A DNA stretch of 64,000 nt from Aquabacterium sp. (GTDB lineage: Bacteria > Pseudomonadota > Gammaproteobacteria > Burkholderiales > Burkholderiaceae_C): contig NZ_JAQSDR010000037.1 of the NCBI RefSeq assembly GCF_029946005.1, positions 92,991 to 156,990 on the forward strand, written 5' to 3'. Shown piece after piece: positions 10,943 through 33,935 of the stretch (position 1 is the stretch's first letter; every line of letters starts with the position of its first letter). Made by a program: the position numbers and the translations under genes. Under the pieces are notes generated by a model. The model had not been told where the DNA came from. It saw only the letters and a program-made list of their open reading frames with translations, and did no database searches.

Positions 10943-12352
10943 TCACTGCGAACCTTCGCGGAAAATCACCACGCTGACCGTTTCGAACAGGATCAGCAAG
11001 TCCAGGAACAAGGAGTTGTTCTTCACGTAGTACAGGTCGTACTGATGCTTGTGCAGCGCATCTTCAAGGGATGCACCGTAGCTGTACTTGACCTGGGCCC
11101 AACCTGTCACGCCCGGCTTGACGCTGTGGCGGATGTCGTAAAATGGGATCTGTTGCTTGAGCTGCTCGACAAAAGTGGGGCGCTCGGGGCGCGGCCCCAC
11201 CATGCTCATCTCGCCCTTGAGCACACTGAGGATCTGAGGCAGTTCGTCGATGCGGGTTTTGCGGATGAAAGCGCCAACGCGGGTCACTCGCGAATCGTTC
11301 TTCTTGGCCCACACGGCCACGCCGTCTTTTTCAGCGTCGGTGCTCATGCTGCGGAACTTCAGGCACATGAAGATCTTGCCGCCCAGGCCTACGCGCTCCT
11401 GGCGGTAAATGATCGGGCCTTCGCTTTCCAGCTTGATGGCCAACATCGTGATCAGCATGATCGGCGAGGCCAACAACAGCAGCACAGACGAACTGACGAT
11501 GTCGAACAAGCGTTTGATGGCGATGCGGGTGCGATTCTGGGCAAAGCCCTGGCCGTAAACGAGCCAGCTGGCCTTCAAGCTGTCAACCGGCACTTCGCCG
11601 GTTGTTTGCTCGTAAAAAGCGGCCAGGTCCAGGACTGGAATGCCCTGAATGCGGGCAGACAGCAGTTGATCCATCGGCACGCTGCCGCCACGTTGCTCTT
11701 TCACGGCCACAATGATCTGGTTGATCTCATGGCTTTGAATGATGTCTTTGATCGACAAGGCTGTGGAGAAGATGTTGAAGCGCTTGTCGGTGACGCCATG
11801 GTCGGCTTCTCCGGCGGGATAAAAACCGATCACCGAATGGCCTTGGACGCGGCGTGCCTTCAAGTCGGAGGCGACGGAGTGCGCTTCCTTGCCTGTGCCG
11901 ACAATCAAGATGCGTTGCTGCACGAAGGCGCTGCGCCACGAGGTCATCAGGTAACCGCGCACCACCACCAAGCCAAAAACCAGATAGGCCGTGGCGAACC
12001 CCATGAGTTGGTACGCCTGAGTGCCATCCAGCATGGTTTTGATGGCCAACTGATAGGCAATGGGGGCGCCCAGCAGGCAACCCAGCAAAGCGCGGCCCAA
12101 TTTGGCACGCGGGGTCTTGCGCTCAGAGCCTTCTCGGTAAACGCCCAGCAAACCGCAGTGCAGGGGCATCACGAAAGCAAAGCCCAAACCTGCCCACAGG
12201 GCAGTGGACATGCTAACCAGATCGGGGGATGTCCCCGTCATGTGCATGAAGGTCATGACCCCCAACACGATTGCCAAAAAACTGGTCAGGCTGTCCGCCA
12301 ATAACTCGGACAGCGTCGCGATGGAAATGTGATGCTGGAAGACCCGGAACAT
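10943..12352 (-). CDS. polyprenyl glycosylphosphotransferase (undecaprenyl-phosphate sugar phosphotransferase; EPS initiation)
   Basis: C-terminal KRLFDIVSSSVLLLLASPIMLITMLAIKLESEGPIIYRQERVGLGGKIFMCLKFRSM...TRIDELPQILSVLKGEMSMVGPRPERP. Confidence 0.92.
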   Translation of the reverse strand: MFRVFQHHISIATLSELLADSLTSFLAIVLGVMTFMHMTGTSPDLVSMSTALWAGLGFAFVMPLHCGLLGVYREGSERKTPRAKLGRALLGCLLGAPIAYQLAIKTMLDGTQAYQLMGFATAYLVFGLVVVRGYLMTSWRSAFVQQRILIVGTGKEAHSVASDLKARRVQGHSVIGFYPAGEADHGVTDKRFNIFSTALSIKDIIQSHEINQIIVAVKEQRGGSVPMDQLLSARIQGIPVLDLAAFYEQTTGEVPVDSLKASWLVYGQGFAQNRTRIAIKRLFDIVSSSVLLLLASPIMLITMLAIKLESEGPIIYRQERVGLGGKIFMCLKFRSMSTDAEKDGVAVWAKKNDSRVTRVGAFIRKTRIDELPQILSVLKGEMSMVGPRPERPTFVEQLKQQIPFYDIRHSVKPGVTGWAQVKYSYGASLEDALHKHQYDLYYVKNNSLFLDLLILFETVSVVIFREGSQ

Positions 12353-13642: not shown

Positions 13643-15802
13643 TTAGAACCCGGCTTGTTGTTCAAGTGGCAAAGGTGTTGTCTCGTCTGTTCGATCCAAA
13701 TTGCAAATACCCTTGGTCTTGATCCAGGTCAACAGGTGTTCGGCCATTCTGGTGGAAGTCTGCCCATCCCAAAACTTGGGCAGCCGTCCCTTCTTTCCTC
13801 CCCCACGCAAGATTTCAGCCACCGCTCGGCTGATCACGCTGCTGTTGTGACCCACTGCGATGTTGGTGCCCTGTTCGACCGTAATGCGCCGCTCCGTGAA
13901 GTTGTGCAGCGTCAGGCAGGGAATGCCCAGGATGGTGGCTTCTTCCTGAACCGTGGATGAATTGGTCAGGATGCAGGCCGAATGGCCCAGCAAGCCAATC
14001 ATCTTATGGTATGGGATCAGGGGCAGCGCCATGATGTGCCCTTCGTGGGCGATTTGCAGCAAACCCAGGTGGTCCAAGCAAGCGCGCGTGCTGTCGTGCA
14101 TTGGCCAGATCAACGGGATGTCCTTGCTGACCATGCGCAAGATGCCCACCAGGCTGGCCAACTCTTCCGGGTTGGTGACTTTGTCCAGTTGCTGGAGGTA
14201 GACCACCCCCACGCCACTTTTGCTTTTCAGGATGTCGGTGGGCTGATTGAGCTGACGCAGGGTGTACTTGGGTTGGGATGCTTGCGGCAGCATGGCGCGG
14301 ATGGCGTCCATCAGCAGGTTGCCCACGAACACCACGCGGTCAGCCGGGATGCCTTCTCTGGCCAGGTTGTCGTGCGCCACCCACTCCGAGGTGAACAGCA
14401 ACTCGCCCATGTGATCGCACATCATCCCGTTGACTTCTTGGGGACGAGAGCGGTCGAAGCTTCGCAGTCCGGCTTCCAGGTGGATGATGGGGATCCCATG
14501 CCGCTGCGCGGCCAGACTGCCTGCCAGCGCCGTGTCGTCTCCGGCCTGAACGATGATCGCCGCTGGACGATGTTGCTCGAACAACTGATCGAGTTGTTGC
14601 AAGGTGGCCGCCAGGTGGGTCAGGCCATTGCCCGCCGGGAGGCGCAACCGGTAGTCCGGGTTGCGCAATCCCAGGTGTTCCGACCAGTCTTGAGTCAACT
14701 CGAAGTGGCCTGGCGTGTCGATGTGCAAGAGCCTTGCGGGCGGCAAGTCAGCGCGGCAACTCAATGCTTTGAGCAAAGGTGATGCACGCAGGCAACCCGT
14801 GCGCGAGCCCGTGAGGCACAGCAGAAACGGCGTGTTCGGCTTGGCCTCGGGGTTGATGGAGGGTGCCACCCAACTTTGACTGGGAACTGGTCCGTCCAGC
14901 CCCTGGGTCAGCGTTGGAATGGCTGATTCCTTCAACGCAAGGCTGGTGTTGGCCGAGGCGGACGCGCCGGTGTTGCTGAGCACAGGCTCACCAATTTCTG
15001 AGCGTATTTCCTGGGCGATTCGAGACACACTGGCGGCCGAGATGTCGTGTTCGCCTGCCAGAAATGCAGCGAGCAGCACCCGGTTGCACAGTAAGTTGAT
15101 GCGTCGGGGAATGCCCGAGGTCCATTCATAGAACTCGTCAAAGGCTTCGGCGCTGATTTGCGGATTGTCGGTCCAGCCGACTTTGTGCAAACGATGCTCA
15201 ATGTAGCGGCGCGTCTCGTCACGGTCCATGGGACCAAGGTGGTAAGACGCGATCACCCGTTGCCGCAGTTGCTCCAGCGAGCGTGACAGCAACATGGTGC
15301 GCAACTCAGGCTGCCCGATCAGAAAGCTTTGCAGCAGAGCCTGGTTGCCAAACTGGAAGTTCGACAGCATGCGCAGTTCTTCAATCGCATCTCGGCTGAG
15401 GTTTTGGGCTTCGTCCACAATCAGCACTGCCCGCTTCTGCTGTGTCGCCAGCAGCGTCAGGTAGGCCTCCAGTGTGGAGATCAGATCGGCTTTGGTGTTG
15501 CCTTTGCACGGGATGCCAAAAGCGGCGATCGATGCTCTCAACAGATCACCGGCCTCCAGTTGGGTACTCACCAGCTGGGCCGCCACGACCTTTTCGGTGT
15601 CGATGTCGTTGAGCAGGGTGCGTACCAGGGTGGTCTTGCCGGCGCCGATGTCGCCCGTGATGACGATGAAACCTTCGGCTTGGTACAGGCCAAATTTCAG
15701 ATAGGACAGCGCGCTGCTGTGACCTTTGCTGTCGAAGTAAAAGCTGGGATCCGGGTTGAGCAGGAACGGCGCGCCGGTGAATCCGAAGTGTTTTTCGTAC
15801 AT
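13643..15802 (-). CDS. fusion: XrtA/PEP-CTERM-associated ExeA-like AAA ATPase (N-term) + UDP-GlcNAc 2-epimerase-like domain (C-term)
   Basis: N-term MYEKHFGFTGAPFLLNPDPSFYFDSKGH... VITGDIGAGKTTLVRTLL (Walker A), LIVDEAQNL (Walker B). C-term IIHLEAGLRSFDRSRPQEVNG, VVFVGNLLMDAI, ILTNSSTVQEEATILGIPCLTLHNFTERRITVEQGTN. One uninterrupted 719-aa frame. Confidence 0.88.
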   Translation of the reverse strand: MYEKHFGFTGAPFLLNPDPSFYFDSKGHSSALSYLKFGLYQAEGFIVITGDIGAGKTTLVRTLLNDIDTEKVVAAQLVSTQLEAGDLLRASIAAFGIPCKGNTKADLISTLEAYLTLLATQQKRAVLIVDEAQNLSRDAIEELRMLSNFQFGNQALLQSFLIGQPELRTMLLSRSLEQLRQRVIASYHLGPMDRDETRRYIEHRLHKVGWTDNPQISAEAFDEFYEWTSGIPRRINLLCNRVLLAAFLAGEHDISAASVSRIAQEIRSEIGEPVLSNTGASASANTSLALKESAIPTLTQGLDGPVPSQSWVAPSINPEAKPNTPFLLCLTGSRTGCLRASPLLKALSCRADLPPARLLHIDTPGHFELTQDWSEHLGLRNPDYRLRLPAGNGLTHLAATLQQLDQLFEQHRPAAIIVQAGDDTALAGSLAAQRHGIPIIHLEAGLRSFDRSRPQEVNGMMCDHMGELLFTSEWVAHDNLAREGIPADRVVFVGNLLMDAIRAMLPQASQPKYTLRQLNQPTDILKSKSGVGVVYLQQLDKVTNPEELASLVGILRMVSKDIPLIWPMHDSTRACLDHLGLLQIAHEGHIMALPLIPYHKMIGLLGHSACILTNSSTVQEEATILGIPCLTLHNFTERRITVEQGTNIAVGHNSSVISRAVAEILRGGGKKGRLPKFWDGQTSTRMAEHLLTWIKTKGICNLDRTDETTPLPLEQQAGF

Positions 15803-15811
15803 GGGTTGGCT

Positions 15812-17329
15812 TTAATAGCGGTAACCCAGGCCGACGTACATGGCTGATTCGTCGTTGGTGTTGATGTTCAACTGAGTGCCGCTGCTGGTTTGGTGGCGCA
15901 AACCAAATGTCGCTGTGGCTTGAGGAGACAAGCGCGTGCTGATATCGCTGTTCCAGGTAAGGCTGCGGAGACGGCCGATACTGTTGGGGTTGACGTTCGA
16001 GGTCAGGGTAGATTGCCCCCAGCGAACTCCTGCATTCAGGGAGGTGATCGGAGTCAGCCGACGGTTGAAGTTGAAGTCGACGTAGCGTTCCAGGCTTTGA
16101 TCACCGATCGGAGGCAGGTTGTTCAGGGCCAGTGCTTTGGTCTTGTTCATGCCTCCGGCCAAGCTGACGGTATTTCGCCGACCCATCAGCACCAGTCGGC
16201 CTTGAAGTGTCTGCCGTAGTGTAGGGGTCAAGGAATAAGGATCCAGCAGCGCAGACATCTGGTCATTCAATCCGCGCTGGGCGATGGTCTTGTCGACCAG
16301 CTCCGAACGGCTTCGTTCGTCCGGATTGTTGGTGGTGAACATTCGGTCCAGCAGTCCCCGCAAGGTTTGATTGCCGGGGTTGCTCAGGGAGGAGGCATAG
16401 GTGCTAGCCTCTCGCTCCGAGAAGATATTCCAAGCGAAGAAGGGGGTGCGGTGGTTCCAATCGACCTTCCAGCCGGTGCCGAAGACGCGGCGCTCCAGTC
16501 GGGATTCCAGGGTTGCGCGTTCATTGGGCCTCCAAGCCAGCGTGATTCCGCGGATGGTTCCGCTTTGCTGGTCTTGCGTGCCCGGCTGACCTGGCCGAGG
16601 CGCGTGGATGGAATCGCGCCCCAGAGTCAGCCCCGGGTAAAGGCCCTCTGTCAGGGCATAGCTCGCGCCCGCTCGCACGGTGTTTTCCCGCAAGGCCGAT
16701 GCCCGCAGGCCCGTCCATTCAAGCGACGTGCCCACCGGCACGGGTCGGCGCTCTAACCGAACGGCATGCCGCGTGAATTGAAGATCTTCTCTTGGCGAGC
16801 CAGCACTCGAGGTGTTTCGGCTGGATTGGACGAAGGATCGCTCAAGTTGGGCGTTGAGCTGAATGTCGGCGTCAAACGAATGGCGAATGTAAGGGATGAA
16901 CCGCGTGAGGGTTGTGGTGTAGCCATCGGTTGCGCCTGCCACAGTGCTTTGGCGGGTCAGCACCGTGGCCGGTGTCTGGCTGGCTTGGACCGAGGCATTG
17001 AGGCCTCCCCATTGGTCCACGAGCACGGATTCAAGTGCCAGCTCGCCCTCAGGCAAGGTCTGATCGGGCTGGCTGTTACGCACATAGTGAATGTTGTTAA
17101 CCCGGAGCCTGCCATCAACGCGAGAGCGGGCGCCCTCGTAGGAGCCACTCAACTCGGGTGAAGTGCTGATCACCAAGTCTTTTCTGGACGAATCACCTGC
17201 TGTTTGGGCATTGGTGGTCGCGGTGGCCGTGACGTTGATGCCAGGTTTAAGGTCCAGCTTCTGGCCTTGGGCATGAGGCAACCATGCGCACAGCATCAAG
17301 GCCAGGATGGAGCCAGACTCACGGCGCAT
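15812..17329 (-). CDS. XrtA-system-associated outer-membrane beta-barrel protein (TIGR03016-like)
   Basis: Signal peptide MRRESGSILALMLCAWLPHAQG; many beta-strand-like aromatic repeats; C-terminal SAMYVGLGYRY (terminal aromatic). Position in XrtA-type locus. Confidence 0.75.
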   Translation of the reverse strand: MRRESGSILALMLCAWLPHAQGQKLDLKPGINVTATATTNAQTAGDSSRKDLVISTSPELSGSYEGARSRVDGRLRVNNIHYVRNSQPDQTLPEGELALESVLVDQWGGLNASVQASQTPATVLTRQSTVAGATDGYTTTLTRFIPYIRHSFDADIQLNAQLERSFVQSSRNTSSAGSPREDLQFTRHAVRLERRPVPVGTSLEWTGLRASALRENTVRAGASYALTEGLYPGLTLGRDSIHAPRPGQPGTQDQQSGTIRGITLAWRPNERATLESRLERRVFGTGWKVDWNHRTPFFAWNIFSEREASTYASSLSNPGNQTLRGLLDRMFTTNNPDERSRSELVDKTIAQRGLNDQMSALLDPYSLTPTLRQTLQGRLVLMGRRNTVSLAGGMNKTKALALNNLPPIGDQSLERYVDFNFNRRLTPITSLNAGVRWGQSTLTSNVNPNSIGRLRSLTWNSDISTRLSPQATATFGLRHQTSSGTQLNINTNDESAMYVGLGYRY

Positions 17330-18251
17330 AGTAGCCATATGCACGGTTGCCTTTAGGGCCGGTGTACTTGTTCAACATGGACATGACCACGGGGCATTCT
17401 TCCACGGTGGCGAAGGCTTGTTTGACGGTGTTGAGCGCGGTCTTGCCTGCTTCAACCACCATCAGCACTTGGCCCATGGAGGTGGCCAGCACACGTGATT
17501 CGGTGCTGGGCAACAGTGGTGGCGTGTCAAAGATGATGACCCGGTCTGGATAAGTGGTGGCCAGTTCTTCCAGCAATTTGTCCATCGCTGCGCTGGCCAG
17601 TAACTCAGTCGACCTGGAGCTTGAAGTTCCTGCTGGCAGTAGCGTCAGCTTGGGAATGTTGGTCTTGAGCAGAACCTCGGACAGGTCGGTTTCAGGGTGT
17701 ATCAGCATGTCCAGCAATCCCTTGGAGGCTGAAACACCCATGCGTTCCAGGGCGGATGGGCGCACCACGTCCGCCTCCACCAGCAGCACGGTGTGGTCAA
17801 GTTCCATGGCAATGCTGACGGCCAGATTGATCGCTGTTTGTGTTTTGCCTTCCCCTGGCAAGGCACTGGTCACCATGATGATGTTCGCCCGCTTGGGGCG
17901 CGACGCCGTCTGGCCCCGCACGTTTTCCAGCAGCGGCCTCTTGATGATGCGGAATTCTTCTTCCAGTTGCGAGCGTGGATGACCCGGCACCAGCAGGCCG
18001 CAGCGGGTCATTTTCATCAAATCCAGCTCGATCATGCGCGACCTGCGCTCATCACCAGACGCTGTCACGTCAGCCTTGTGAGAGACAGGGCGGGGTGACG
18101 CAGAGGCTATTGAAACCGGTGGAGCCTTGTCGACCTTGGTTTCCGCCACGGTTGGCGCCGCCACTTGAACTTGAGGCGAAGCCTGGCCCACATCCACGCC
18201 AGCGCGGCGCAACTCTTCCAGTCGTTTGGCTGCTTGTTCAATGGTGTTCAT
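17319..18251 (-). CDS. XrtA-associated tyrosine autokinase (BY-kinase, CpsD/CapB-like)
   Basis: MNTIEQAAKRLEELRRAG; Walker A-like ALPGEGKTQTAINLA, VLLVEADVVRPSA, VIIFDTPPLLPSTES; tyrosine tail YGYYAP. Confidence 0.9.
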   Translation of the reverse strand: MNTIEQAAKRLEELRRAGVDVGQASPQVQVAAPTVAETKVDKAPPVSIASASPRPVSHKADVTASGDERRSRMIELDLMKMTRCGLLVPGHPRSQLEEEFRIIKRPLLENVRGQTASRPKRANIIMVTSALPGEGKTQTAINLAVSIAMELDHTVLLVEADVVRPSALERMGVSASKGLLDMLIHPETDLSEVLLKTNIPKLTLLPAGTSSSRSTELLASAAMDKLLEELATTYPDRVIIFDTPPLLPSTESRVLATSMGQVLMVVEAGKTALNTVKQAFATVEECPVVMSMLNKYTGPKGNRAYGYYAP

Positions 18252-18258
18252 GGTCGTA

Positions 18259-19818
18259 TCAAGGCAGAAGTTGACGAGCCACGACCACGAGCCATGCCGC
18301 ATGCAAGACAAAGAAGATGCCGACGTTCCAGTTGAACAAGCGATTACTCCGCTGCATGGCTTCGCTGATCGCTGGACTGACAACCAGCGAAACACTGCCA
18401 AGCACGGGGCGTCCAGAGATTTCTTTAAGCTGGCGACTGTCTTGCACCGTTGGAAAAAGCTGAGTCAAACCAAAGGCTGTGGCTGCGCCAGCGGCCAGCG
18501 CGGCGACGACGGCCAACAATGCGATGACCAAGCGACTCGGTTTAACGGGGCTTGGCTTGACCCGGGGGGGCTCGACCACGCGGAAATCTGCCACTTTGGT
18601 GGTCTGATCAATTTTCTCACCCAAGGAAGCTGATTCACGGCGTCCAACCAATTGCTCGTAGTTTTTGCGCACCACTTCGTAGTCACGGTTCAACTGAGCC
18701 AACTCGGCTTCAACTTGGGGCATTTGTCCGGCGAGTGCACGGGTGCGCGCTAACTGGGCGTTTTGCTCTCCAAGCTGTCCGCGCAAGGAGGCCGCCTTGG
18801 CTTCGGCTTCTGCCAATGCGACGCGGATGCGCTGGAATACTGGGCTGGTGGGGGCTGCGCGCAATCGGGTCCCCCCCTGCGCGCGCAGCCGAGCATCCAG
18901 CTCCGCTTTGCGCTGTTGTTCAAGTTGGCCAATGGTTCGCTTGGCGCTCACCACGTCGGGGTGCTCGTCGGTGTAGCGACGCATTAACTCATCCAGTTGG
19001 CGCTTTTGAACATCCAGGCGCACTTCGAGGTCTGTGCTTGGCGCGGTGGATGAGCCTCCATTGCCCAACAGCTCTGGCGGAATGGAGGGCTCTTCGGTGG
19101 ACAATTCTCGGCGCAGTGCGTCTCGGGCTTGTTCGGCGGCACTGAGTTCCACGCGCAGCCTGCCTGTCTCGTCGGACAGGTTGGACATGCGAGCGAAGTA
19201 GTCTTGGTTGGACGTACCAGTCAAACCAAAATTACGCAGTTTGAAATCCTTGAGCTTGTTTTCAGACTCGCTGAGCTTGCTTTCGTAAGCGCGAATTTGC
19301 TCGTCCAAGAATTGACGCGCTTGCTCTGAATCCCGCCGCTTGTCGCCAACCCCGGCGCTCATGAACAGTGACACCAACTCCTCCACGAGGCGTTGAGCAC
19401 GTTGGGGATTGATGTCCCGGTAGATGATCTCGTACAGGTTGTTGTTGCCGCTGGGGTTGACTTTGATGTCCTTCATCAAGCGATCAATCACTTTTTCCTG
19501 ATCGCGCTCATTCAGGTTGTCCAGCCCAATTCGTGGCGAGCTCATCAGGCGTTCAATATTGGGGCGGCTGATGAGCGTGCGGGCCAGCATGCGCACTTGC
19601 TGATCCACATCGGGCTGAAACGCCAGGCCGGTCATCAATGGCTTGAGCACGGTTTCTGTGTCAACGTAAATGCGGGCGGACGCTTCGTAGCGATCTCGGA
19701 TGATCAACACGCCCAACATCCCGGCGATCGCGATCAGCCATGCCATGGCTGCGCCGAGCCAGCGCCGCTGCCACATCGCATTCAATATCCCGGCGACTTG
19801 TCTAAGAAGGTCATCCAT
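18259..19818 (-). CDS. XrtA-system polysaccharide chain-length determinant (Wzz/BY-kinase-associated TM protein)
   Basis: N-terminal RWLGAAMAWLIAIAGMLGVLIIRDRYEASARIYVDTETVLKPLMTGLAFQPD; coiled coil; C-terminal PPRVKPSPVKPSRLVIALLAVVAALAAGA. Confidence 0.92.
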   Translation of the reverse strand: MDDLLRQVAGILNAMWQRRWLGAAMAWLIAIAGMLGVLIIRDRYEASARIYVDTETVLKPLMTGLAFQPDVDQQVRMLARTLISRPNIERLMSSPRIGLDNLNERDQEKVIDRLMKDIKVNPSGNNNLYEIIYRDINPQRAQRLVEELVSLFMSAGVGDKRRDSEQARQFLDEQIRAYESKLSESENKLKDFKLRNFGLTGTSNQDYFARMSNLSDETGRLRVELSAAEQARDALRRELSTEEPSIPPELLGNGGSSTAPSTDLEVRLDVQKRQLDELMRRYTDEHPDVVSAKRTIGQLEQQRKAELDARLRAQGGTRLRAAPTSPVFQRIRVALAEAEAKAASLRGQLGEQNAQLARTRALAGQMPQVEAELAQLNRDYEVVRKNYEQLVGRRESASLGEKIDQTTKVADFRVVEPPRVKPSPVKPSRLVIALLAVVAALAAGAATAFGLTQLFPTVQDSRQLKEISGRPVLGSVSLVVSPAISEAMQRSNRLFNWNVGIFFVLHAAWLVVVARQLLP

Positions 19819-19867: not shown

Positions 19868-20500
19868 TCAGAACCAGCTTTGCGGGACGATGATGATGTC
19901 ACCGGGTTTGATTTCCACGTTGGCAGAAATATCGCCACGTTTGATCAGATCCTTGAGTCGCAGGCTGTACTGTTTGCCCTGCTCTGATCCCCGCACGAGG
20001 ACTGCACCATTGCCATCAGCAAAATCGGTCAGCCCACCGGCCTGGATCATGACGTCAAGCATGGTCATGTTTTGACGGAAGGGCACAGCCTGTGGGCGAG
20101 TGGCTTCGCCAACGATGCGAATCTGCTCAGTGGACACACCTTGAAAATTGCTAACGATGACCGTGACAACCGGCTCGCGGATGAACTTGGCCAGCGCCTT
20201 TTCGATGTCCCGAGACAAATCAGCAGGATTGCGGCCGGCGGCCTCAAGGTTTTCGACCAGGGGAAGCGAGATGCGACCGTCTGGGCGCACCGTGACCGAG
20301 GATGACAGGTCGGGATTGCGCCAAACCACGATGTTGAGCGTGTCGAGCGCGCCAATCTTGTAGAAGTGATCAGACTTGCTGGCCACCGCAGGCGCTGGTG
20401 GATAGCTGCTGAACGATGTGCATGCCGTCCCCGCCAGAACAAGGGCACTCATCAACGCGATGCGACAAAAAGAAGAAATTGCATTGTGACGAAAGACCAT
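19868..20500 (-). CDS. polysaccharide export lipoprotein (Wza family, XrtA-type)
   Basis: Lipobox LVLAGTAC; YKIGALDTLNIVVWRNPDLSSSVTVRPDGRISLPLVENLEAAGRNPADLSRDIEKAL (Poly_export) and SLBB region ending IIVPQSWF. Confidence 0.93.
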   Translation of the reverse strand: MVFRHNAISSFCRIALMSALVLAGTACTSFSSYPPAPAVASKSDHFYKIGALDTLNIVVWRNPDLSSSVTVRPDGRISLPLVENLEAAGRNPADLSRDIEKALAKFIREPVVTVIVSNFQGVSTEQIRIVGEATRPQAVPFRQNMTMLDVMIQAGGLTDFADGNGAVLVRGSEQGKQYSLRLKDLIKRGDISANVEIKPGDIIIVPQSWF

Positions 20501-20679: not shown

Positions 20680-22254
20680 TCAGTTCAGTGATCCGGCCCA
20701 GCGTGTGAGCCAAGGGGTGATAGGACCGAATAACCGCGGTTTTTTGGCGGCAAGCATGAGTGCCATATCAGCATCCTTCGCTTTCCATGCTTTAAGAACA
20801 ATGGTGCCACCCAGCAGGATGAATATATAGACGAATCCTATGCCGATTTGTGTCAGCACCGCAGGATGGTGGGGCATGAGGAGCCAGCAGGCCGTGCCTG
20901 CAATCATTGCGGCCAGGCACAAGCGCACGATGTGACTGATGGGGAAGGTGACATTCAGCGATTTCCTGATCCAAATGGCCGTGACTAAAAAAATAATCAC
21001 CCGGGTGCTCGCGTGAGATACCAATGCGCCGGTTAATCCGAATTTTGGGACCAGTACAAAAGCTGCGATGGCGCTGATCAATACCGACAACGTGGCAATA
21101 CCTGCTCGCAATTTTTGGTTGTCGGTGGTGGACATCAATGCGCCAAATGCCCCTTCCGGTAAAGTCAGTCCGCCCACAACGACCATGACCTGCAGCACTG
21201 GGGTCACAGCCTGGTATTGGCTGCCGTAAAGAATGGCAATGCCAGGCTCTGACCAAATCAAACCCGCCCCGCCTATGATCAAGCCAAAGAATAAGAAATA
21301 TCGGATTGAATCGCTCAAAATGGTGTTGACCTTTTCGCTGCCGCCTGCACCATAGGCGTGTGCCATGATGGGCATCAGCATGGCCGTCAGTGATGAGGAC
21401 AGCAGGTCGATGCCGCCTCGGGTCAGGGTGGTTGCGATGGTGAAGTAGCCCACCTCTTTGGCGCCCACCTGGGTGCCCAGTAAAAAGGTCTCGATGGTTT
21501 TGTTGCTGAGGGTGGCGACTGCCACCAAAACAACGGTCCAGGCGATGTGGGGTTTGATGTGTTGGATCAGGTCGGGAGGGCATGGTGTGTAGTCGGGGCT
21601 GATGCCGTTTTTTCGCATCAACCACCAAACCATGCATATATGCAGGAAGCTGACCGCGCCAAAGAAAATGGCGTAGTCGTTCAGGTCGGCCTTGCCCAGT
21701 GCGAGCAGGCCCACGCCTGCGGCATAAACCAAACTCATGACCGTGTTGGTCAGGGCCTCAACGGAAAACTTCTTATGGCCTTTGGCGATAGAGACATCAA
21801 ACAGATAGGCGGCCTTGGATGCCACGCCAATGATCAAAATGGACAGCAACAATGTTCGATGGTGTTCCCATCCCGCCATTGGAAGCCACCATGATGCAAT
21901 CGTGAATACCAACAATATCAGCAAAGTGCTGATTTGCTGCCATTTATTCAACCAGCCGTGTATTTGGCGGGCGATTTGCTGCTGACCACGTCCGAGGTAT
22001 TCAGAGACGAATCGAATCCCGGAAATGCCCAAGCCGTGATTGCAAAATACCACGAGTAAACCTGACATCCAGATGAGGTAGGAGTACCTTCCGTAGTCTT
22101 CGGGGCCCAGGCTGCGGGCGATGATTGTGCTGACAACTAAGCCCATCACCGTTGTCACATAAGTGGCAGCCGTTATGAGCAATGCATCACGGAGAGATGC
22201 TAGGCGTCCTGATGCGGGGGCGGTCACAGGCGGTGTACGATGGTCTCGTTGCAT
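20680..22254 (-). CDS. polysaccharide biosynthesis flippase (Wzx/MATE-like)
   Basis: 524 aa multi-TM; ALLITAATYVTTVMGLVVSTIIARSLGPEDYGRYSYLIW. Confidence 0.85.
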   Translation of the reverse strand: MQRDHRTPPVTAPASGRLASLRDALLITAATYVTTVMGLVVSTIIARSLGPEDYGRYSYLIWMSGLLVVFCNHGLGISGIRFVSEYLGRGQQQIARQIHGWLNKWQQISTLLILLVFTIASWWLPMAGWEHHRTLLLSILIIGVASKAAYLFDVSIAKGHKKFSVEALTNTVMSLVYAAGVGLLALGKADLNDYAIFFGAVSFLHICMVWWLMRKNGISPDYTPCPPDLIQHIKPHIAWTVVLVAVATLSNKTIETFLLGTQVGAKEVGYFTIATTLTRGGIDLLSSSLTAMLMPIMAHAYGAGGSEKVNTILSDSIRYFLFFGLIIGGAGLIWSEPGIAILYGSQYQAVTPVLQVMVVVGGLTLPEGAFGALMSTTDNQKLRAGIATLSVLISAIAAFVLVPKFGLTGALVSHASTRVIIFLVTAIWIRKSLNVTFPISHIVRLCLAAMIAGTACWLLMPHHPAVLTQIGIGFVYIFILLGGTIVLKAWKAKDADMALMLAAKKPRLFGPITPWLTRWAGSLN

Positions 22255-30766: not shown

Positions 30767-31310
30767 GTTTAATTCAATCCACGCATTTGCACTACAAAAT
30801 TGCCTTCTGCCGACGTCGACGACAACCGTTGAAAGCAGCATGGTTGGAAGGTTAGCGGCAAGGTCTTTCAGTCACTGGGCAAGTTGTAAGTGAATACAAA
30901 AAAAAGCTTTTTAAAGAAACATCTAAAAGTGTGAAATAAGTCAACCCCTGATATGGGGGGTTGTCCGGTTTAGCGGGGGAGGCTGTGTCGTTTGTGCCGA
31001 TCTCTGGTGTTTCCGTGTGCCTGACGTTGTTACAAATTGGCGCATTATCCGCAACATGGGGCTGCCGAGGCTAAGCATGATGCATTCGTTGTTTGGGAAA
31101 AATCGCTTTCATCAAGCGGTTAGGGTTCTTGCAAACGGTCGGTTGGTTACATGAGCAGATGGTCGCATTCGATGTAGCGGCTACAGTGCTGGCCAAGTCG
31201 GTCGAAGAATTTGGAAGAGCTGGGCCGTGTTGGGTCATCCCAAGTTTGGACATGTTGCTCGCAATGCGAGTCTGGCTTGGCGCATCCAGTTATGTGCAGT
31301 AGAGGTATCA

Positions 31311-33935
31311 ATGCTTATTTCTCGTCAATTTCTTTTCGCCGCAGTGACCTCCGCCATGTTGGCCGCCTGCGGCGGCGGTGGTACTTCAGGCACTGAAACC
31401 CCGACCACCAGTGGTTCGGGGACCGTGGTTCCCCCATCGGGCACGAGTTCCACCGGCTCTTCCACAGGCGGAACGACAACGACGCCGACCAGCCCCACGG
31501 CGCCTGTGCCCGCGGCCACTGTCACAATCACGGTTCAACCTGCCAATGTCAGCACTTCTGCTGGTGGCGATGCGTCGTTCAGCGTCACTGCATCTTCTAC
31601 CGACACCCTGAGCTACCAGTGGCTGCGCAATGGGGTCGCCATTGCGGGGGCAACAGCTTCCTCTTTCGTGGCCAAGGCTGTGCAGTCCGCTGACAGCGGC
31701 GCCAAGTTCTCGGTGGTTGTCAAAGGCTCTGTGACCAATGTCACCAGCTCGCAAGCAATTTTGAGCGTGACGATGGCATCGGCCACGTCATATCCCGTCA
31801 TGTTTGTGACCAGCGTGCCTGCATTTGGCTTTGCCAACCAGTTGAACACGTTTGGCAACCATGGCAGTGGTGTCACTGATGCCATTGCCGGTGGCGATTT
31901 GTATGTTCGCTATACCGATGGCACTTTGCGCAACCTGACCAAGGAAGCTGGCTGGGGCGTTGACTCTGGCGGTATCCAAGGTGGTGCCAAGGCCATTTCC
32001 GTGCGCCAGCCTTCGATGCACTGGGATGGCAAGAAAGCTCTTTTCTCCATGATGGTGGGCGGAGCTACTGCTCGCTACCAGGCGCCTGCCAGAAATTGGC
32101 AAATGTACGAAGTGACCGGCTTGGGCAAGGGCGAGAAGGTGGTCATCACCAAGGTGGCCAACCAGCCCGCCACATACAACAACATCTCGCCGATCTATGG
32201 CAGCGACGACAGCGTCCTGTTTATTTCCGATGCCCCATTGTTTGGCATGACCGCGACTTACCCGCAATTGGACGAGTACGAGGCCATTGCCACCAACACT
32301 GGTGTCTGGAAGCTGAATGTATCAAGCGGCAAAATTACGCAACTTGAGCACTCCCCCAGTGGCGTCTTTGACCTGTTCTTGGACAGCTATGGTCGTGTCT
32401 TGTTCACCAAGTGGGACCACTTGAAGCGTGACCAGGAAGCGGACATCGATCGCTACCTCGGTGGCGTGTACGGCACCATTGACTACGAGTCGGAAACCTC
32501 CACGAAGACCAAGACCTATCCCCGCAGGGACGCCAGTGGCAAGCTCATCGCCGACACGAAGGGCGTTCTCTACGACGTGTTCCCCGAGGCCCGCCATGCC
32601 CAGGATCCGACGCGCGACCCCAATGAGCCGCTGCATGACTACAACCAGTTCTTCCTCTGGCAGGTCAATGAGGACGGCTCTGAAGAAGAAACCATCAACC
32701 ACGTAGGTCGTCATGAGTTTGGGGGCACTTACAACACCGGGGTGTTTCTCAATGACCCGAATTTGAGCGATGCCTTCCCGAGTTTTGGTGCCAACGTCAG
32801 CATGCGCGGCACGTTCAGGCCTGATGCCGGTATGTTCCAGATGCGTGAAGACATCAACCGCCCTGGTACTTATCTTGGCACCTATTCGATGGAATTTGCC
32901 CGTCAAACCTCTGGCCGCATTGTCGAATTCTCGATGCCGCCCGGCAAGAGTCCTGAGGAGGTGGCGGTCACTGACTACACCAATGCCACACTTGACGCGG
33001 ACCCCTACGGTTCTGCCGCGCCCTTGGCCACCATGACCGGTCACTACCGCAACCCCCTGCGCCTCACGGATGACAGCATTCTGGTCACCCATACGGCTGA
33101 ATACCGTTTGAACAACACCAGCAATCCATATCGGTTCCAGTTGAAGAAGTTGGTGCCCAATCCTTTTGGCAAGGACATGATTGCAGGTCCCTCCCTGACT
33201 GGTGGCATTGTCAAGAACATCCTCTACTGGACCGACGAGGCCACACCCCGCCAGTACCTGGGACCCCTGAACGAGCACGATGCCATCGAAGTTCGCTCGC
33301 GTCCTCGCCCTGTGTCTCGCACCATGACCGTGGCTGACGTCGAAAAGAAAGTGCTCACGGAAGAAGGTGTGAGTGAGACTGAATTGCGCGCTTGGCTGCA
33401 GAGCAAGAATCTGGCGCTGATCGTGACTCGCAATGTGACCCTGCGTGACCGCGCTGATGTGAGCCAGCCTTATAACTTGCGTGTGCCTGGTGGTGTTCAG
33501 AATGTGCCGAAGTCCGGCACGGTCTATGACATCGCTGGTTTGCAGATCTTCCAAGGCGATTTGACGCGTGGGTATGGCAATGGCGCCGGCAAGGGGCGCC
33601 GTGTTTATGCCAGACCCGTTCACAACAGCACGGTTCACACGGATGTGGAGTCTTGGTACCCCACGGGCACCCAAGCTGCCACCGTGCAGATTGGCAAGGA
33701 TGGATCCACGGCGGCTTTCGTGCCTGCTGGCCGTGCACTGAGCTGGCAGCTGACCAGTCCCACGGGCAAGCCGGTGGTGCGTGAGCGGGTTTGGGTGAGT
33801 TTTGCGCCCGGTGAAATCCGCACCTGCGCCAGCTGCCACGGTATCAACAAGCAGACGCTCAATGGATTGACCGAGCCGAAGAATCCACCGGAAGCGTTGC
33901 GTGATCTGATGCGCACCTGGAAAACGCGCAAATAA
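31311..33935 (+). CDS. lipoprotein with Ig-like domain, propeller-like/HzsA-related region and C-terminal monohaem CxxCH
   Basis: MLISRQFLFAAVTSAMLAACGGGGTSG (lipobox LAAC); Ser/Thr linker; Ig-like VTITVQPANVSTSAGGDASFSVTASSTDTLSYQWLRNGVAIAGATAS; VRQPSMHWDGKKALFSMMVGG; C-terminal EIRTCASCHGINKQ (CxxCH). Confidence 0.8.
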   Translation: MLISRQFLFAAVTSAMLAACGGGGTSGTETPTTSGSGTVVPPSGTSSTGSSTGGTTTTPTSPTAPVPAATVTITVQPANVSTSAGGDASFSVTASSTDTLSYQWLRNGVAIAGATASSFVAKAVQSADSGAKFSVVVKGSVTNVTSSQAILSVTMASATSYPVMFVTSVPAFGFANQLNTFGNHGSGVTDAIAGGDLYVRYTDGTLRNLTKEAGWGVDSGGIQGGAKAISVRQPSMHWDGKKALFSMMVGGATARYQAPARNWQMYEVTGLGKGEKVVITKVANQPATYNNISPIYGSDDSVLFISDAPLFGMTATYPQLDEYEAIATNTGVWKLNVSSGKITQLEHSPSGVFDLFLDSYGRVLFTKWDHLKRDQEADIDRYLGGVYGTIDYESETSTKTKTYPRRDASGKLIADTKGVLYDVFPEARHAQDPTRDPNEPLHDYNQFFLWQVNEDGSEEETINHVGRHEFGGTYNTGVFLNDPNLSDAFPSFGANVSMRGTFRPDAGMFQMREDINRPGTYLGTYSMEFARQTSGRIVEFSMPPGKSPEEVAVTDYTNATLDADPYGSAAPLATMTGHYRNPLRLTDDSILVTHTAEYRLNNTSNPYRFQLKKLVPNPFGKDMIAGPSLTGGIVKNILYWTDEATPRQYLGPLNEHDAIEVRSRPRPVSRTMTVADVEKKVLTEEGVSETELRAWLQSKNLALIVTRNVTLRDRADVSQPYNLRVPGGVQNVPKSGTVYDIAGLQIFQGDLTRGYGNGAGKGRRVYARPVHNSTVHTDVESWYPTGTQAATVQIGKDGSTAAFVPAGRALSWQLTSPTGKPVVRERVWVSFAPGEIRTCASCHGINKQTLNGLTEPKNPPEALRDLMRTWKTRK

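Follow-up and report, generated by a model that had tools for sequence, protein, structure and literature searches.

Organization of the fusion gene

The window analyzed here (the whole stretch of 64,000 nucleotides from Aquabacterium sp.) carries a gene in which an ATPase of the XrtA type is fused to a UDP-GlcNAc 2-epimerase-like (WecB) domain that has lost catalytic residues. We favor, with moderate confidence, the reading that its product is an ATPase of exopolysaccharide (EPS) assembly and export with a non-catalytic WecB module, acquired in one fusion and likely serving as a docking or oligomerization platform. The gene and its parts were delimited as follows:

13643..15802, minus strand: fusion of an ATPase and a catalytically degenerate WecB, 719 aa (reading frame and profile matches)
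14996..15802, minus strand: ATPase domain spanning residues 1-269 (TIGR03015; both Walker motifs intact)
14831..14995, minus strand: linker rich in Ser/Pro/Ala, residues 270-324 (22 of the 55 residues)
13727..14830, minus strand: WecB-fold pseudo-epimerase domain, residues 325-692 (profile and AlphaFold2 model)

The original prediction, made by eye, had described a single 719-aa frame joining an XrtA-type ATPase to a WecB fold through a Ser/Pro/Ala-rich linker, and the analysis confirmed each of these elements. From its ATG to its TGA the reading frame is uninterrupted, with no stop codon between the two halves. Residues 1-269 matched TIGR03015 over the full model length with 370.7 bits (cut-off 324.5), and the Walker A (GDIGAGKTT) and Walker B (LIVDEA) motifs that had been named were located at residues 50 and 127, respectively. 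The match to Epimerase_2 (PF02350) covered residues 362-690 with 209 bits, and the WecB domain reached 181.4 bits against the wecB model TIGR00236, under its equivalog cut-off of 210.15. The linker evolves fast and its residues 271-321 have a pLDDT below 50 in the predicted model. A sequencing or assembly artefact was ruled out as the origin of the fusion, because the same architecture was found in independent, related genomes and in other genera.

The AlphaFold2 model of the WecB domain (pLDDT 84.5) has the two Rossmann-like lobes of the WecB fold. Foldseek matched it to solved WecB-like epimerases, with TM-scores of 0.84-0.86 to 4nes and 0.86-0.89 to 8sxy, 8sye being also among the matches (about 0.84-0.89 overall). 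It must be noted that AlphaFold2 models speak to the fold and not to side-chain chemistry; at that level, the predicted model bears out the earlier claim that the WecB fold is kept.

Active site of the WecB domain

Residues were numbered after the WecB of E. coli MG1655, in which the catalytic four are D95, E117, E131, and H213. The codons at the main positions, identified by alignment, are the following:

14786..14788, minus strand: codon of R339, equivalent to K15 of E. coli WecB (K to R)
14540..14542, minus strand: codon of G421, equivalent to the catalytic D95
14534..14536, minus strand: codon of D423, equivalent to E. coli position 97
14438..14440, minus strand: codon of Q455, equivalent to the catalytic E131
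14192..14194, minus strand: codon of Q537, equivalent to the catalytic H213

Aligned to E. coli WecB, the window protein keeps E117 alone among the catalytic four, D95 being replaced by Gly and both E131 and H213 by Gln. The pocket is also changed at K15 (to Arg), R135 (to Gly), R214 (to Gln) and in the SGG loop, while R10, S290, E296, and R313 on the UDP side are kept. Nine sequences compared in Aquabacterium show no variation at R10, S290, E295/E296, E312, or R313, and every one of them has Arg at K15. These alignments agree with two motif changes reported in the original prediction, namely Lys to Arg in the N-terminal WecB motif (K15R) and the replacement of His and Arg in the HRxEN motif (H213Q and R214Q). 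Its statement that the PxExN motif is retained stood only in part, as the Glu kept there is E132 and the catalytic E131 has become Gln. The loss of D95 was absent from its list.

Neither E131 nor H213 is restored by an indel in either of two alignments, in line with the predicted loss of catalytic chemistry, and the epimerase catalysis of the window protein has very probably been lost. In this regard, published work shows the enzyme to be disabled by single substitutions at these sites: a K15A WecB has been described as catalytically inactive (PMC8669472), and D95Q and E131Q were approximately 100-fold slower according to Samuel and Tanner, as cited in PMC8869731. The E135A variant of P. alvei MnaA, equivalent to E131A, showed no measurable kinetics in the work in which the substrate-binding and allosteric residues are listed (PMC11464976). 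The K15R change alone is not diagnostic of a dead enzyme and was discarded as its sole mark, because two stand-alone WecB-like proteins (L105 and L106) carry K15R together with G292T and yet keep all four catalytic residues.

Residue conservation in fused and stand-alone WecB domains

The comparison covered 50 distinct fusion domains, 33 of them below 70% mutual identity, and 68 stand-alone WecB homologues. Each sequence was aligned singly to a stand-alone profile, and MAFFT alignments agreed with the result. All catalytic four are kept in 66 of the 68 stand-alone proteins, and the stand-alone WecBs sampled from XrtA loci have an intact active site. By contrast, 18 of the 50 fusions have kept none of the four, 25 have kept one and 7 have kept two, with more than two in no case. 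H213 is lost in all fusions or in all but one, depending on the alignment. The substrate residues have also been eroded (R10 is kept in 14 fusions, S290 in 27, and E296 in 32) and the five substrate-binding residues occur together in a single fusion. The Walker A and B motifs, for their part, are intact in all 49 fused ATPase domains tested.

The columns that were once invariant are kept at only 35% on average in the fusions. Catalytic columns were not lost in excess of other once-invariant columns (permutation test, p of 0.15 with the catalytic four and of 0.45 with all nine), so that a targeted loss of the active site beyond general relaxation is not supported and the residue losses are better described as a general release from enzyme constraints. 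One residue is conserved specifically in the fusions: at E. coli position 97, Asp is present in 41/50 fusions and Asn in 54/58 stand-alone WecBs.

EPS operon and genomic context

The following genes around the fusion were assigned by profile matches:

20680..22254, minus strand: Polysacc_synt flippase (Wzx-like)
19868..20500, minus strand: EPS export protein TIGR03027 (Wza-like)
18259..19818, minus strand: chain-length determinant TIGR03007 (Wzz-like)
17319..18401, minus strand: tyrosine autokinase TIGR03018
15812..17344, minus strand: outer-membrane protein of XrtA-type EPS loci, TIGR03016
12562..13560, minus strand: polysaccharide deacetylase (PF01522), directly downstream of the fusion
10943..12352, minus strand: glycosylphosphotransferase TIGR03013

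The five TIGR families of this list (TIGR03027, TIGR03007, TIGR03018, TIGR03016, and TIGR03013) all scored above their cut-offs, on the same strand as the fusion, and make up the gene set usual for XrtA-type EPS loci. These neighbors bear out the earlier proposal that the WecB-like domain is joined to its ATPase within an exopolysaccharide operon. The arrangement is shared with other genera, since in the six that were checked (Aquabacterium and five others) the fusion directly follows the TIGR03016 gene and the export, chain-length, and kinase genes lie in the same cluster. Against TIGR03006, the model of the XrtA deacetylase with a cut-off of 276, the deacetylase scored only 20 bits, so it is a different deacetylase at the same operon place. 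Elsewhere in the window, a 902-aa protein (31227-33935) gave a weak match to the middle domain of hydrazine synthase alpha (PF18582, 31.7 bits) and has a CASCH motif near its C-terminus.

Completeness of the source genome is 100% and its contamination 0.36%, and no second WecB or Epimerase_2 protein was found in it, which answers in the negative the question raised earlier of whether an intact wecB exists elsewhere in the genome. The fusion is likewise the sole Epimerase_2 protein in the five genomes of the genus that have it and in four genomes of genera g271 and g279. In a sixth genome of the genus (G698) neither an Epimerase_2 match nor the fusion was present. In most of the other genera that carry the fusion, stand-alone WecBs occur in addition to it.

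With respect to the sorting system, no exosortase was found on the contig of the window (C37), those of the source genome being on contigs C12, C27, and C2. The distance between wecB and an exosortase gene is 2-11 kb in eight unfused genomes. Where the fusion is present, the exosortase genes are separated from it by 16 kb or more or are found on different contigs, and the tested genomes of g206 and g191 have none. Judging from these positions, the fusion locus seems to be decoupled from XrtA sorting. Outside the window, at positions 64915-70124 of contig C12 of the source genome (G000), two exosortase genes flank a WecG/TagA-family glycosyltransferase gene, a possible user of UDP-ManNAc; this is a separate exosortase-linked polysaccharide locus.

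Distribution of the fusion and its paralogues

A search for the same domain architecture in other genomes, as proposed with the original prediction, found it in related genomes and in about 13 genera of one Burkholderiales family. Among 401 genomes of this family, 27 had a single match that ran through the ATPase and reached the final part of the epimerase domain; further fusions were recognised by profile in genera g165, g191, and g215. In an order sample and a phylum sample, drawn evenly and of 399 genomes each, the fusion appeared only in the same family (G000 and G264). The Aquabacterium-related genomes L122-L126 have the same architecture at 79-95% identity, the nearest named relatives being Aquabacterium L122, L124, and L125 (92-95%), and four further genomes of the genus have the fusion at 68-70% identity. 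Elsewhere, the ATPase and wecB are commonly found side by side as separate genes.

Six genomes (G264, G719, G655, G777, G586, and G781) have two fusion paralogues each. A second paralogue with a more divergent ATPase was seen at L187:9392-11620 (G264) and in L138, L139, L140, L149, and L150. That of G264 lies outside any EPS cluster and adjoins genes for NAD synthase and a NuoF-like/molybdopterin oxidoreductase, and that of G586 forms a near-tandem pair with the EPS-type fusion, with a TIGR03013-like gene between them. The fusions of genus g215 (L088, L092, and L154-L156), recognised with a profile built from other fusions, have a very divergent C-terminal half in which the Epimerase_2 match is weak or partial. 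In G463 (L100/L157) the fusion and a stand-alone XrtA-type WecB occur together in one genome; no ATPase gene was found in the stretch read around this stand-alone WecB, one of the stand-alone proteins most closely related to the fusion clade.

Origin of the fusion and selection on its domains

In a tree of 116 ATPase domains, the fused and unfused proteins were parted by one branch (100/100). With generic WecBs as the root, the tree of epimerase domains grouped the fusions in one clade (100/100), nested within the stand-alone WecBs of XrtA loci; most fusion clades were on long branches. When the ATPase tree was rooted on distant ExeA-like ATPases the root fell inside the fusions, but the outgroup branches were very long; this rooting was set aside as untrustworthy and the epimerase-domain tree was used instead. 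Because the fusion clade is nested in stand-alone XrtA-locus WecBs that look active, the trees indicate a single fusion event, from a stand-alone WecB with an intact active site, followed by the loss of catalysis.

Between the window protein and its relatives in L122-L125, at a synonymous divergence of 0.5-1.1, the dN/dS values were 0.017-0.044 for the WecB domain, 0.025-0.034 for the ATPase, and approximately 0.1 for the linker. By these ratios, the degenerate WecB domain is maintained by strong purifying selection among near relatives and is functional even if dead as an enzyme. Compared with more distant members of the genus, the WecB domain showed roughly three times the rate of the ATPase (dN of 0.30 vs. 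0.105), though still with a ratio of about 0.24-0.30.

Proposed function and alternative explanations

According to the reading that we favor, the gene for an XrtA-type EPS-export ATPase was fused once, in one Burkholderiales family, to an adjacent active wecB, and the epimerase half then lost its catalytic residues. The fused protein would act as an ATPase within the complex that assembles and exports EPS, and the C-terminal WecB fold as a non-catalytic module, which would most likely dock or oligomerize and so link the ATPase with the operon's tyrosine kinase and with its chain-length and export proteins. A docking or oligomerization role shared by the family fits best with a fold that is kept while the ligand pocket varies between fusion clades.

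The same variation bears on the original suggestion of nucleotide-sugar sensing, according to which the dead WecB would bind UDP-GlcNAc or UDP and its open/closed movement would gate the ATPase, so that export tracks the precursor. The closing of active WecBs over UDP-GlcNAc at an allosteric site (PMC11464976) and the invariance of the UDP-side residues in nine Aquabacterium sequences speak for it. With R10, S290, E296, and R313 retained and Arg in the place of K15, UDP-sugar binding is possible in Aquabacterium. The window protein is, however, altered at H213, R214, R135, and the SGG loop, and the other fusion clades have lost more, down to one complete set of the five substrate residues among 50. 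Given this erosion of the UDP pocket, a shared sensor role is not indicated by conservation; as stated the suggestion found no support, and we regard it as unlikely. A pocket remodeled to act on a different nucleotide sugar or to carry out a different reaction, with Asp97 as a new functional residue, would agree with the prevalence of this Asp in the fusions and with the strong purifying selection among near relatives, but we consider it improbable, since the other pocket positions differ between fusion clades and no common new catalytic set is visible.

We consider it highly improbable that the protein is still an active UDP-GlcNAc 2-epimerase working through displaced residues, such as the neighboring Asp of GDDT in place of D95. 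It is the sole WecB homologue of a complete genome whose WecG/TagA-family glycosyltransferase could want UDP-ManNAc, and E117 and the UDP-side residues remain; nevertheless, H213 and E131 are replaced with no indel to restore them, and the WecG-family gene is on another contig beside the exosortases. Transferases of this family use several donors. Even less credence is given to a functionless epimerase half on its way to loss: the long branches of most fusion clades and the low retention of once-invariant columns would be expected of such a passenger, but a half that decays without doing anything is difficult to reconcile with the low dN/dS between near relatives and with full-length frames in about 13 genera.

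Comparison with known systems and implications

The window protein resembles the XrtA/PEP-CTERM ATPase TIGR03015 in its whole-model match, Walker motifs, and operon place after the TIGR03016 gene, and differs from it in being fused to WecB and in having no exosortase on its contig. With WecB/MnaA (TIGR00236, PF02350) it shares the fold, a length of about 370 residues, and R10, S290, E296, and R313, but it does not have D95, E131, or H213, has Arg at K15, and falls under the equivalog cut-off. The gene order of ATPase, epimerase, and polysaccharide deacetylase is also that of the XrtA EPS locus of Rubrivivax gelatinosus (RGS1_10397-10398), where the ATPase and the epimerase, a stand-alone epsC (wecB), are separate genes followed by the deacetylase (PMC3684757). 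GNE (UDP-GlcNAc 2-epimerase/ManNAc kinase, 4zht), to which the window protein gave a weak match (E 0.006), is comparable in that an epimerase-fold domain is fused to an ATP-using domain. GNE is an active hydrolyzing epimerase with a sugar kinase, whereas the window protein has lost the epimerase residues and has an AAA-type ATPase as the partner domain. No description of a pseudo-epimerase in EPS systems or of an ATPase-WecB fusion was found in the literature searched.

The fusion of both genes suggests that the ATPase and WecB, neighbors in many EPS operons, belong together physically. NCBIfam lists the XrtA-associated ATPase as a "hypothetical equivalog," and the fusion makes the function of this ATPase directly testable. 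The loss of catalytic residues across the fusions separates a non-catalytic role of WecB from the supply of UDP-ManNAc. In addition, it must be considered in annotation that epimerase models match the fusions; UDP-ManNAc should not be inferred from the genomes of the genus, because those with the fusion have no other WecB. We tentatively raise, as a possibility still open to considerable doubt, that the WecB of XrtA loci has a second, non-catalytic role as partner of the neighboring ATPase, and that the fusions kept this role and dropped catalysis. If so, the fusions would be ATPases regulated or scaffolded by a pseudoenzyme, and active stand-alone WecBs would bind their ATPase in trans.
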